Positions 1 through 29,732 of a stretch of DNA of 34,944 nt are shown piece after piece; position 1 is the first letter of the stretch; every line of letters starts with the position of its first letter. Source of the stretch: an uncultured Chthoniobacter sp. (lineage in GTDB: Bacteria > Verrucomicrobiota > Verrucomicrobiia > Chthoniobacterales > Chthoniobacteraceae); assembly GCA_903874975.1 (NCBI GenBank), contig CAIQUL010000011.1, forward strand, positions 1 through 34,944, given 5' to 3'. Both the position numbers and the translations under genes were made by a program. Under the pieces are notes generated by a model, which was not told the DNA's origin, did no database searches, and was given only the letters and a program-made list of their open reading frames with translations.

Positions 1-368
1 TCCTTCACGGCGTCCATCACATCAATGAGCTTTTGCACGGGGAGATCGCGATCCGACCGGATGACCACGGCGGCGGCGGGCTTCTCTTCCCGCAGCGCGA
101 CGAGTTGGCTGGCGAGTTCCGCGAGGGCGAGCGGCTGGCCGTTGAGGGCGAGCTCCGCCGCGTTGTTGATCGTGATGGTTTGCACCATCTGCGGATCGAC
201 GGCGTTCTTCGCGGCGGAACTCGTCGGCACTTGCAGGTCCACGCTGTTTTCCATGAGCGGCGTGGTGATCATGAAAATGATGAGCAGCACGAACGCGAGA
301 TCGAGCATCGGAGTGACGTTCAGCTCGTTGAGCGAGTGCAGGCTTTGGCGGTCGGAAAAGCGGCGCAT
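1..368 (-). CDS. exbD: ExbD/TolR-family biopolymer transport protein (3' end outside window)
   Basis: This is the partner subunit of a proton-driven inner-membrane motor of the Tol/Ton type. The reading frame starts at ATG 366-368 and stays open to the left edge, so 122 residues are visible and the C-terminus is missing. A short cytoplasmic N-terminus is followed by the signature ELNVTPMLDLAF and one transmembrane helix (about residues 20-42). Asp23 is in the place of the channel aspartate that is essential in ExbD and TolR. The rest is the periplasmic domain, ending in sight with a helix around LPVQKLIDVMD. The ELNVTP signature is closer to TolR than to classical ExbD. It lies just downstream of the TolQ/ExbB gene on the same strand, and an inverted repeat fills the junction. 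The start codon is only 4 bp from that repeat and has no clear Shine-Dalgarno sequence. Confidence 0.88.
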   Translation of the reverse strand, partial: MRRFSDRQSLHSLNELNVTPMLDLAFVLLIIFMITTPLMENSVDLQVPTSSAAKNAVDPQMVQTITINNAAELALNGQPLALAELASQLVALREEKPAAAVVIRSDRDLPVQKLIDVMDAVK

Positions 369-26374: not shown

Positions 26375-26614
26375 CTAAAACCGCGGGAGCTGCGCGCGTT
26401 CATTCAGCGCGCCGCAGTGGGGGCAGCGGGAGAGAGCGGTGCTCGTCGGGTCGGCGTATTCGCCGGCGCAGAGTTTGCAGCGGAGCACCGCGCGAAAGGC
26501 CGCGTGCTCGCGGCGTTGGCGGCACCACTCGGCGAGCAGCCAGGCGCCGCAGATCGGGCACAGCATGATCCCGAGATAAAGGCAGACGAGGGCGGAGAAA
26601 CTGACGTGGATCAC
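26375..26614 (-). CDS. Small membrane protein with C-terminal zinc ribbon
   Basis: The 79-residue product begins with GTG 26612-26614, which overlaps the TGA of the TonB-like gene (GTGA), indicating translational coupling. A hydrophobic segment covers residues ~8-30, with an extra CPIC at 19-22. The rest is cytoplasmic or periplasmic and holds a four-cysteine zinc ribbon: Cys46-x2-Cys49 and Cys64-x2-Cys67 (in RCPHCGALNE). I know no family member in a Ton system with this form. It may assist assembly of the neighbouring motor or sense metal. An alternative is that it is only a conserved downstream gene without a functional link. Confidence 0.68.
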   Translation of the reverse strand: MIHVSFSALVCLYLGIMLCPICGAWLLAEWCRQRREHAAFRAVLRCKLCAGEYADPTSTALSRCPHCGALNERAQLPRF

Positions 26615-27366
26615 GGCGTTGGCGGCTTCCCGGCGTAGGCTTCGTCGCCCCACGTCACGACCACAGCGACCCAGGTGATGGGGGCCTCGTCCGGCGCGAA
26701 GACGAGGTCTTTCAAATGCGCCGCGGCCTGCGCATCGAGCGCGGGATTGCCGGAGGAGTTTTGCAGAAAAACGAAACGCACTTCGCCTTTCGCCGTCACG
26801 CCGATGAGGTGGCGCGTGGGCTCGATGGGAGCGGTTGCGCGGCTCTTCGCCACAAGCGACGGAAGCGGGTCCGGGATGCGGCGGGCCACGCTTGCGGAAA
26901 AGCTGAGGGCGGTGGGCTGCGGCGCGGTGTGAACGACTGGCGGTGCGGGTTGCGCGGCGGTGCTGGTGATGACGGCGAGCGCAGCGCGCGCCGCCGGAAA
27001 CGGCACGGCCACGGGGGTCTCGGCGGGATCGAGCGGGGTGGTGCGGATGGTGGCGTAAGAAGGCCGGTAGGTGGTGGCGAGCAGGCCGGGGGGCGGGACG
27101 CTGGCCGTGGTGGCGGCGCGCGCGGGATCCTGCGCGGCCACCCAATCCAGTAGCGCGATGGCCTCCGGCGAAGACGGCGTGAGCACGCTGACCTGCGGCG
27201 CCGTGCGGGCGATTCGCGTGCTCGGCGGCTCGGCGACGCGGAAGAGAAAAAACGTGGCCGCGTGCGCGGCGAGCGACGCCACGATGCAGCCGCAGAGCAG
27301 GAAGGGAAAACCCTCGTCGCGCGGCCACTCGAAAGTCAGCCCGGGGTCACGTGCCTCCGCTTTCAT
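26611..27366 (-). CDS. TonB-like energy-transducing protein
   Basis: The 251-residue protein has a short cytoplasmic start, one membrane anchor (about residues 22-42), a long Pro-, Ala- and Thr-rich periplasmic linker (~45-165) and a C-terminal domain (RHLIGVTAKGEVRFVFLQNSSGNPALDAQAAAHL), which resembles the TonB C-terminal fold. The YP motif of classical TonB is not evident, so the call relies on architecture and on the preceding ExbB and ExbD genes. It would carry motor energy to outer-membrane transporters or another periplasmic partner. Its ATG overlaps the ExbD stop (ATGA at 27363-27366) and its stop overlaps the next GTG. The four genes 28469 to 26375 form a tight operon. Confidence 0.75.
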   Translation of the reverse strand: MKAEARDPGLTFEWPRDEGFPFLLCGCIVASLAAHAATFFLFRVAEPPSTRIARTAPQVSVLTPSSPEAIALLDWVAAQDPARAATTASVPPPGLLATTYRPSYATIRTTPLDPAETPVAVPFPAARAALAVITSTAAQPAPPVVHTAPQPTALSFSASVARRIPDPLPSLVAKSRATAPIEPTRHLIGVTAKGEVRFVFLQNSSGNPALDAQAAAHLKDLVFAPDEAPITWVAVVVTWGDEAYAGKPPTP

Positions 27367-27767
27367 CGCGGCTCGGCGCCGGTGGCGAGGATGACGGAAA
27401 AGCCAAGCTTCAGCGCCTCGTCGGTGACCTGCACGACGAGCGCATAGGGCGTGTCGCGGTCGGCTTTGATGATGACCGAACGGTCTTGCGTCGGGTTCTC
27501 GGTCAAGTGCCGGCCCAGCTCCGCGAGGGTCACGGCCTGGTCGCGGTGATAGATGGACGGGATCGGTGCGGAGGTGATGCTGATGATCTGTGCGCCCGCG
27601 CGCGGCGCGAGGGTGAAGGAGGAGGCCGGCAGGGTGACGGCGAGGCCCGACTGGAGGACGAAGCGGGAGCTGAGCGCGAAAAAGATGACGACGAGAAAGA
27701 CGACGTTGACCAGCGGGATGAGGCTGAAAAGCCAGATCGGGATTTTCTGCGTGCGCGTGAGTTTCAT
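27363..27767 (-). CDS. exbD: ExbD-family protein with Asn in place of the channel aspartate
   Basis: The 134-residue protein has the ExbD layout: a short basic N-terminus, one membrane helix (residues ~12-34) and a periplasmic domain with AVTLAELGRHLTENPTQD and SVIIKADRDTPYALVVQVTDEALKLG, the usual C-terminal pattern. The helix reads IPLVNVVFLVVIFFAL. In ExbD and TolR the residue after PLV/PLI is an aspartate that carries protons and is needed for function; here codon 27705-27707 gives Asn21. The rest of the helix is well conserved, so the gene is not degenerate. Either proton transfer uses another residue, or this motor works differently. The other ExbD in the window (1-368) keeps the aspartate at residue 23. 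Confidence 0.88.
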   Translation of the reverse strand: MKLTRTQKIPIWLFSLIPLVNVVFLVVIFFALSSRFVLQSGLAVTLPASSFTLAPRAGAQIISITSAPIPSIYHRDQAVTLAELGRHLTENPTQDRSVIIKADRDTPYALVVQVTDEALKLGFSVILATGAEPR

Positions 27768-27794: not shown

Positions 27795-28469
27795 CTACTC
27801 CGCACCTTGGCGCGCCGCGCGGGTCGCCGGGCCAAACTCGATGATCTCCGGGCCCGGCGGGTGCCGGTGCTCGGTGATGAGGTTCACGATCTCGATGCCT
27901 GCCCGCTCGAGATCGTGCATGAGCGCATTGACGCGCGCCGAGAGGTAGCTGTAACCGACCGCGCACGGGATGGCCACGATCAGCCCCGCAGCGGTGGCGA
28001 GCAGGCTCTGGTAGATGCCGCTCGCGATGTCGGCGGAACCGGTAAAGCCACTCTGCGCGGACACTTTCACAAACGCGTCGATGAGCCCGATGATCGTGCC
28101 CAGCAGGCCGAGCAGCGGCGCGATGAAAGCGATGGTCGCGAGGAGGCCGAGCCGGCGCTCGAGTTGCGGCACTTCGAGTTGGCCGGCTTCGGTGACGATG
28201 TCTTTCAGCTCCGCGCGCGTGGCCTGGTGGCGGAGGATGGCGGCGTGGATGACGCGTGTGACCGGCGTCGGCGTGCTCGCACATTCCATCTGCGCTTCGG
28301 AAAAGCGCCGGTGCTCGATGAGGTTTGCGAGGCCGCGCATGAACTCGCCCACGCGGACCGTGATCCGGTGGAAGTAGGTCGCGCGTTCGAGGAAGACGGC
28401 GCCCGCGAGGACGCTGCAGAAGAGAATAGGCCACATCATCGGACCGCCTTTTTGCATGTAGTCGAACAT
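27795..28469 (-). CDS. exbB: ExbB/MotA-family proton channel protein
   Basis: The 224-residue membrane protein has an N-terminal helix (GGPMMWPILFCSVLAGAVFLE, residues ~7-26, in parts), a cytoplasmic region, and two further helices with the motifs IAPLLGLLGTIIGLIDAF and LLATAAGLIVAIPCAVGY. Both conserved threonines of the pore helices are present. Together with the next gene, ExbD, it would form a proton-driven motor. ATG 28467-28469 is preferred over one at 28505 because a promoter with a TATAAA box ends 6 bp before it. ExbD follows after 27 bp. The C-terminal tail is Pro- and Glu-rich and disordered. Confidence 0.92.
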   Translation of the reverse strand: MFDYMQKGGPMMWPILFCSVLAGAVFLERATYFHRITVRVGEFMRGLANLIEHRRFSEAQMECASTPTPVTRVIHAAILRHQATRAELKDIVTEAGQLEVPQLERRLGLLATIAFIAPLLGLLGTIIGLIDAFVKVSAQSGFTGSADIASGIYQSLLATAAGLIVAIPCAVGYSYLSARVNALMHDLERAGIEIVNLITEHRHPPGPEIIEFGPATRAARQGAE

Positions 28470-28583: not shown

Positions 28584-29732
28584 ATGAAAGCCGACAGCAC
28601 TGTGATCAAGTTTGCCTGCGCGCACTGCGGCCAGCGCATCTCGATCGATGCGGCGGGCGCGGGGATGACGGCGACCTGCCCGAACTGCTCTCAGCCCCTC
28701 GTGGTTCCCAAACTCGGAAGCCTGCATCACCGCACCTACGGGGAGGACGTGACCAGCGCGCCGAGCCGGAGCGGCGGGGGGGCGGCGCCGGAAACCAATG
28801 CCGCTGTGGTGCTGCGGGAGTTGCGGGGAAAGCTGGCGGAGACGGAGTGCGCGCGCGGGGTTGCGGAGGCCTCGCTCGCGATGATCCGGCGGGAGAATGT
28901 TCAGCTCGTCGAGCGAATCGGCAGGCTTTCCGCCGAGTGCGGGCAGCGCGTCGGTGATGGGGCGGTCGCGGCGCAAAAGCTCGCGCAACGGGAGCAGGAA
29001 CTCGCCGCTTCGGTCAAAAGCGCCGACCAGCTTTCCGTGGAGATTTCCGCCCGCGAAACCGAACTGAGCGAGACGCGGGCGCGTCTCGCTGCGAGTGAAA
29101 CCGCCACAGAGCGGGCGCGGGAGGAAGTAGGCGCACTCACTGCCCAGAACGCGGAGTGGCGGCAAAAACTGGCTGCCGCGGTGGGAGCGCAGGATGTGGA
29201 TGCGATGCGCGCCGCGCTCGCCGGCGCGGAGGAAAAGCTGACCGCGGAGCAAAGCGCGCGCGCCGCCGCGGAGACGCAGCGCAACCTCCGGGCCGGCCAG
29301 TGCCTGCTGCTTCAGGAAGAGATCGCCCGACTCCGGAATGACCTCGCCGAGGGACACGCCGGCCGCGAACTGCTCGCTTTGCGGGACCGCTTCGAAGTGC
29401 TCGAAAGCAAGCACCAGAAAGCGACCGCCGCGCTGGAGAACCTGGAAAGTGCGCACGCGACGCTGACCGCCGCCGAGCGGCAACTCCGCACCGAAGCCAG
29501 CGCGGCCCGCGCGCGCGCGGCCGCCGCTGAGAACCGCGCCGAAGCGTCCACCGACTCCGCGCTGGCGCGCGACATCGCCGTCCTCCGCGGCATCATCGAA
29601 CGGCAGAAAGCCGAGTTGGAAGAGCGCTTCGTCGAGTTGCGCCGCTTCCAGCGCGCCCGCCTCGTCCTGCGCATCGTCTACGCAGTTTTCGCCCTCGCAT
29701 TTCTGGTCGTCCTCACGCTCATTTTTTTGTGA
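28584..29732 (+). CDS. Zinc-ribbon, coiled-coil protein with C-terminal membrane anchor
   Basis: The 382-residue protein has three parts. Residues ~8-40 are a zinc ribbon with Cys12-x2-Cys15 and Cys32-x2-Cys35 (CAHCGQ ... CPNCSQPLVVP). Residues ~75-355 are Ala-, Glu- and Arg-rich with heptad-like spacing and should form a long coiled coil. The last ~22 residues (RIVYAVFALAFLVVLTLIFL) are a membrane helix, so this is a tail-anchored protein with the ribbon and coil in the cytoplasm. I know no function for it. It could be a membrane scaffold or tether. Coiled-coil composition makes similarity searches misleading. It is divergent from the ExbB operon, with a promoter between. GAGGAAG lies about 11 nt before the start and may serve as the ribosome site. 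Confidence 0.78.
   Translation: MKADSTVIKFACAHCGQRISIDAAGAGMTATCPNCSQPLVVPKLGSLHHRTYGEDVTSAPSRSGGGAAPETNAAVVLRELRGKLAETECARGVAEASLAMIRRENVQLVERIGRLSAECGQRVGDGAVAAQKLAQREQELAASVKSADQLSVEISARETELSETRARLAASETATERAREEVGALTAQNAEWRQKLAAAVGAQDVDAMRAALAGAEEKLTAEQSARAAAETQRNLRAGQCLLLQEEIARLRNDLAEGHAGRELLALRDRFEVLESKHQKATAALENLESAHATLTAAERQLRTEASAARARAAAAENRAEASTDSALARDIAVLRGIIERQKAELEERFVELRRFQRARLVLRIVYAVFALAFLVVLTLIFL

Follow-up and report, generated by a model that had tools for sequence, protein, structure and literature searches.

Can a motor of the ExbB-ExbD type run on protons when its ExbD carries Asn in place of the Asp of the membrane helix? The question is raised by a locus in the window, the whole stretch of 34,944 nucleotides analyzed here, from a contig of an uncultured Chthoniobacter sp. 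(CAIQUL010000011.1). The Asp concerned is the residue underlying models of ExbBD, TolQR, and MotAB. A 2026 review, in the passage available, describes it as absolutely required for activity (PMC12905483). The original prediction placed an Asn-bearing ExbD in an intact ExbB-ExbD-TonB operon. The features at the locus are these:

27795..28469, minus strand: exbB, MotA/TolQ/ExbB family, 224 amino acids from an ATG start, 98.7 bits to Pfam model PF01618
27363..27767, minus strand: exbD, ExbD/TolR family (Pfam model PF02472), 134 amino acids, with a single membrane helix followed by a periplasmic domain
27705..27707, minus strand: the AAC codon for Asn21 of ExbD, at the position of E. coli Asp25
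26611..27366, minus strand: tonB-like gene, 251 amino acids, a membrane helix with an S-x3-H motif (S31, H35), a linker, and a C-terminal domain of predicted TonB/TolA fold
26375..26614, minus strand: small protein, 79 amino acids from a GTG start, one hydrophobic segment and then a C-x2-C...C-x2-C zinc ribbon

The N-terminus of ExbD reads MKLTRTQKIPIWLFSLIPLVNVVFLVVIFF, with Asn as residue 21, part of a P-x-x-[D/N]-hydrophobic motif in the single membrane helix. The protein scores 62.6 bits against PF02472, well past the curated cut-off of 25.4, and its AlphaFold2 model (mean pLDDT 71.7) has a helix at residues 11-34 followed by a mixed alpha/beta domain (helices 81-90 and 108-120, plus strands). 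Proton-driven 5:2 motors (ExbBD, TolQR, MotAB) are recognized by an Asp in the middle of the axle helix, the place taken here by Asn21. Strong orthologs, defined by E-values below 1e-30, occur in 36 of the 40 genomes of the window's family. The pore residue was read in 32 of these 36 (those of G006, G012, G036, and G037 were left out) and is Asn every time, encoded by AAC in 25 cases and AAT in 7. N21 is one of 13 invariant columns in a 24-row alignment, with most of its neighbors in the helix variable. Because every relative read shows Asn, by way of two different codons, Asn21 is no sequencing error, and there is next to no chance that sequencing or assembly produced it. The original prediction had named two outcomes against itself, an error at the codon and relatives that all have Asp; as judged from the relatives, neither was found. 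The replacement at the channel position is real and a fixed trait of the family.

The claim of an intact operon stands for its first two genes, with exbD directly behind exbB across a gap of 27 bases. It needs qualification for the third, which overlaps exbD by 4 bases. The window's copy of this protein has no Pfam match at an E-value of 1, hence no TonB_C match, and is TonB-like by its predicted fold and through a relative. The AlphaFold2 model has a helix at residues 22-41 and a strand-strand-helix-strand domain at 184-238, with pLDDT near 98 for that domain. In structure comparison, ranks 1 to 23 are all C-terminal domains of TonB, TolA, HasB, or FusB, with Z from 8.1 to 3.8, and unrelated entries start at Z 3.0; the best match has Z 8.1 and rmsd 2.3 over 78 aligned residues. 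Plain Foldseek E-values are weak, the best being 0.011. Among 37 aligned relatives, His35 is conserved in 90% or more, and the relative in genome G229 weakly matches TonB_C (1.6e-5). The predicted fold, together with that weak match, identifies the third gene as TonB-like at the level of a structural model. The operon claim had no place for the fourth gene, whose start overlaps the stop of the tonB-like gene; its GTG start was picked by analogy with relatives, and its product has weak Pfam zinc-ribbon matches.

The cluster of exbB, exbD, tonB-like gene, and zinc-ribbon gene is conserved and is not a plain ExbB-ExbD-TonB set. A zinc-ribbon motif lies downstream in 88 of the 184 ExbD rows of our phylum survey, in which the flag for the tonB-like gene undercounts, missing even the window's own copy, whose open frame starts far upstream. 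Every row with the cluster genes has a single ExbD, contrary to the suggestion of a second ExbD subunit in the operon; the only two-ExbD loci are non-cluster Asp-type pairs of the window's genome (L002, L008). Values of pN/pS against three relatives are 0.20-0.24 for exbB, 0.34-0.41 for exbD, and 0.56-0.66 for the tonB-like gene, which indicates, from sequence comparison, purifying selection on exbB and exbD. The genes flanking the cluster gave no functional clue. The divergent neighbor of exbB (28584-29732, plus strand) encodes a protein whose N-terminus has a zinc-ribbon-like stretch and whose C-terminus has a hydrophobic helix, with a long region in between; its Pfam matches are weak only.

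The pore residue was then compared across the order, where 91 of 97 sampled genomes have an ExbD ortholog (E-value below 1e-25). The count combines the 32 orthologs of the window's family with all 77 strong orthologs of other families. Among these 109, the residue is Asn in 41, Asp in 33, Thr in 11, Gly in 9, Ser in 6, Glu in 4, Gln in 3, and Cys and Ala in 1 each. The position thus holds small or polar residues only, with no bulky hydrophobic and no basic residue seen. By family the residues are distributed as follows:

f1 (the window's family): Asn in 32 of 32
f2: Asp 12, Asn 1
f48: Asp 7, Glu 4
f52: Thr 10, Asn 1
f53: Gly 6, Ser 4, Ala 1
f4: Asp 9, Gln 3, Gly 2
f47: Asn 4, Cys 1, Gly 1, Ser 1
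f49: Asn 2, Asp 2
f3: Ser 1, Thr 1
f45, f46, and f50: Asp 1 each
f51: Asn 1

The four f48 rows with Glu for Asp (L057, L058, L059, L061) form one clade. Of two 0.9 Mb genomes from a single genus, G075 retains the cluster and has Ser as its pore residue, and G096 has no ortholog and a single ExbD.

For the phylum as a whole, an exact DNA pattern scan proved too strict, finding the motif in 1 of 145 genomes, the window's own, and was replaced by profile searches, of whose matches the rows used here are a part. A search of plasmids found nothing. Removal of identical sequences left 184 of 199 ExbD rows, and 136 of the 184 entered the tree on the requirement of an ExbB at the locus plus a tonB-like or zinc-ribbon gene. 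On this tree of 136 clusters, a quick one built without the pore column and having some long branches and a few unsure deep placements, the pore residue changes at least 30 times, and at least 18 of these changes are between acidic and non-acidic residues. Restricting the count to rows that show the zinc-ribbon gene leaves 15 changes. The 25 rows of the window's family form one clade (SH-aLRT 98), which bears out the suggestion that Asn defines a clade. Asp is kept in 59 of the 136 clusters; a proton-driven role must therefore suit at least those members.

A site this labile could belong to a decaying system on its way out, as could the loss of the ortholog in G096. We consider this very unlikely: the ortholog persists in nearly all genomes of the order sample, pN/pS is low for both exbB and exbD, Asn is invariant among the family members read, and the four-gene order is kept.

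We take T148, E176, and T181 as the E. coli ExbB numbering and place these positions here by motif. Thr at the T148 position is thought to be part of the proton path. It is present in 136 of 136 clusters, and Thr at the T181 position in 23 of the 25 family rows; the window's ExbB has Thr at both and Gln at the E176 position. Since both Thr positions are kept, the pore is not visibly decayed in the window's family. Across the clusters, a hydroxyl residue (Thr or Ser) occupies the T181 position in 63 of 63 members with an acidic pore residue versus 51 of 72 with a non-acidic one, as if a proton path decays after the acid is lost. On independent pairs the trend runs nearly always in the same direction and is non-significant (median p 0.25-0.5; few informative pairs).

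A compensating acid in the partner ExbB had been proposed. A conserved ionizable residue inside helices 2 and 3 was looked for in the 136 clusters, and none was found in these pore helices. Near the ends of the helices, the family rows do have acidic residues, at profile column 129 in 21 of 25 and at column 145 in all 25. The complex might thus still be proton-driven, through water and two rings of Thr, or by way of these acids at the helix ends, with Asn acting as a polar gate; the universal Thr at the T148 position would agree with this. On the other side, acidic residues at these two columns are frequent across the whole set too, 4 of the 25 family rows have Gln or Lys at column 129, and by motif both columns fall outside the middle of the membrane. 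Gly, found at the pore position in several relatives, has no polar side chain. The D25N form of E. coli ExbD is, according to the portion seen of a review, inactive and fails to cross-link (PMC11658791), in agreement with what the original prediction said of the E. coli protein. Taken together, we regard continued proton drive as quite unlikely.

A coupled loss of Glu at the E176 position of ExbB appeared striking at first, with Glu in 0 of 30 family loci and in 1 of 52 pairs with Asn-type ExbD. Specificity for the Asn type was rejected, as Glu is found in only 20 of 73 Asp-type pairs. Because 53 of 73 Asp pairs lack Glu as do 51 of 52 Asn pairs, the change is no signature; across clusters there is no association (Glu in 12 of 63 acidic versus 9 of 72 non-acidic members, p 0.35).

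Another ion, for instance Na+, could take the place of the proton, with the oxygen of Asn or of Thr/Ser as ligand. Side chains of Asn, Thr, Ser, Gln, Asp, and Glu could all, as a matter of general knowledge, ligate Na+. The residues seen at the site in relatives include Gly, Ala, and Cys, which speaks against such coupling, and we hold it improbable.

The Asp might also be supplied by a different protein. The window's genome encodes 12 ExbD proteins in all, and of the 11 others, the 9 that were read all have Asp; the two outside this count lie on contig C75. Non-cluster ExbDs in 22 other such genomes have Asp in 30 of 30 cases read. At least one further ExbD occurs in each of the 20 cluster-bearing relatives (of 22 scanned) as well as in the window's genome, so an Asp-type subunit could come in trans. 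Contig C318 combines an Asp-type ExbD with a TonB_C protein (1.9e-24) and a receptor fragment, likely the genome's canonical Asp-type Ton set, separate from the cluster. At the contig edge, the window itself holds a second ExbB/ExbD pair (3-368 and 474-1244, both minus strand), presumably resembling TolQR-type pairs; it is Asp-type (NVTPMLDLAFVLL), with its ExbD cut by the contig end.

Gene pairs for Asp- and Asn-type ExbDs are seen in Proteobacteria. A scan of species genomes found Asn-motif ExbDs at at least 119 loci. Among the 119 listed, 78 are from Alphaproteobacteria, 34 from Gammaproteobacteria, 3 from Omnitrophota, and one each from Verrucomicrobiota, Nitrospinota, Bacillota, and Bacteroidota. 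Of the 119 listed loci, 102 have an Asp-type ExbD immediately upstream, encoded on the same strand. In 6 others the partner is truncated short of the pore column. A further 9 have no partner upstream, of which 4 are at an edge and 5 are not, and the last 2 yielded no ExbD. The 226 ExbDs of the listed loci have Asn in 117, Asp in 103, and an unread residue in 6. A second sample covered 274 genomes from the class of one of the genomes listed; the motif occurs in 21 of them, and an Asp partner is upstream in 22 of 22 loci. The next gene has a transmembrane His motif in 76 of the 119 listed loci, consistent with tonB by pattern rather than by profile. This operon order, exbB-exbD(Asp)-exbD(Asn)-tonB, points to an asymmetric motor in which each ExbD pair would have a single Asp. 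Asn-type ExbD is thus common in these bacteria as the latter member of an Asp/Asn pair, whereas the window's family has it without such a partner in the cluster. Three Omnitrophota loci (L268, L295, L302) have an Asn-type ExbD with no second ExbD nearby and keep Glu at the ExbB E176 position. In the full-text literature, with preprints excluded and judged by titles and the openings of abstracts, no description was found of a natural ExbD without Asp or of Asp/Asn pairs.

By analogy, the Asn-type ExbD of the cluster might join an Asp-type ExbD from elsewhere in the genome, one of each per ExbB ring. The Proteobacterial pairs, and the 11 further ExbDs of the window's genome with Asp in every one read there and in relatives, are what favor such a mixed motor. 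Against it, no row with the cluster genes has a second ExbD in the cluster; G075, at 0.9 Mb, retains only the Ser-type ExbD and one Asp-type ExbD behind an ExbB of its own; and Gly, Ser, Thr, and Gln, all found at the site in the order, were not seen in the Proteobacterial pairs listed. The window's locus gives no indication of a mixed Asp/Asn motor, and we judge the assembly of one in trans unlikely.

Receptors offer a further view of function. The window's genome has 4 matches to the receptor model PF00593. No PF00593 receptor was found in 11 of 23 genomes searched; these 11 include 10 of the 21 cluster-bearing genomes, 7 of those 10 being at least 90% complete. As judged by PF00593 alone, the cluster therefore does not appear to be tied to receptor-driven uptake.

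The simplest reading is that the complex would serve as a static or passive anchor for its TonB-like arm, probably uncoupled from proton flow. The pore position would have been released from the need for a proton-binding carboxylate and then fixed as Asn in the window's family. Asn would be unable to cycle between charged and neutral forms, so that, we infer, the complex is not proton-driven through this site, and the ExbD pair would stay in a state that mimics the protonated form. The complex may then be an anchor in the inner membrane, either fixed or passively mobile, by which the TonB-like arm is held or oriented toward the outer membrane; the zinc-ribbon protein might exert control over it. 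The fixed Asn of the family, the lability of the site elsewhere, the lack of an acid in the ExbB pore helices, purifying selection, the Asp of other ExbDs, and the failure to find PF00593 receptors in nearly half of the cluster-bearing genomes tested all agree with an uncoupled anchor. The strongest objection is that Thr at the T148 position is completely conserved. We tentatively favor, at somewhat less than even confidence, a Ton-like complex that no longer needs a proton-binding carboxylate, is separate from the canonical Ton system, and acts as a passive anchor for the TonB-like arm. The wider proposal joins two parts: a Ton-like lineage without the carboxylate, whose rings would not be run by protons and would be kept by selection for anchoring or regulating a TonB-like arm that has a zinc-ribbon protein as partner, and, in parallel, the evolution in Proteobacteria of asymmetric motors whose two axle subunits differ, one having Asp and the other Asn. 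As a whole it is possible, short of probable.

The repeated natural replacement of the Asp questions whether such motors always run on protons, the more so as it took place in the cluster, and Asp was retained by all other ExbDs read in those genomes. The natural series of Asp, Glu, Asn, Gln, Ser, Thr, Gly, Cys, and Ala bears on what the pore residue does beyond carrying protons. The Asp/Asn pairs of Proteobacteria offer, without engineering, a natural test of whether one Asp per ExbD pair suffices and of how far the ring turns per proton.

Among known systems, the cluster resembles the Ton system of E. coli (ExbB-ExbD-TonB) in its ExbB and ExbD, both recognized by Pfam, and in an adjoining tonB-like gene whose product has an S-x3-H helix and a domain of predicted TonB/TolA fold. 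It differs in having Asn for Asp25, a third protein not recognized by TonB_C, a fourth gene for a zinc-ribbon protein, and many host genomes in which PF00593 receptors were not found. The Proteobacterial exbB-exbD(Asp)-exbD(Asn)-tonB operons share the motif and the Asn within it, but there an Asp-type ExbD lies directly upstream, whereas here exbB is upstream and ExbD is single. In the tonB-exbB-exbD1-exbD2 genes of X. campestris, compared here without the pore residue of ExbD2, the ExbDs are likewise in tandem, and exbD2 is dispensable for iron uptake according to the part of the report available (PMC3551730). The MotB D22N mutant of Campylobacter jejuni also has Asn at the proton site and is described, in the text seen, as protonation-mimetic (PMC9389320), but that is an engineered change in a flagellar stator, and the present case is a natural clade. 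Uncharacterized ExbBD-type motors, including some from Verrucomicrobia, also occur with vWA force transducers, encoded with tolQ-like and paired tolR-like genes and in some cases having an S-H helix motif; the sections available report Asp as kept in a second vWA family (PMC12204202). There the arm is a vWA domain, whereas here it is TonB-like and the Asp is gone. The parts of the cluster are known, and the variant is new.
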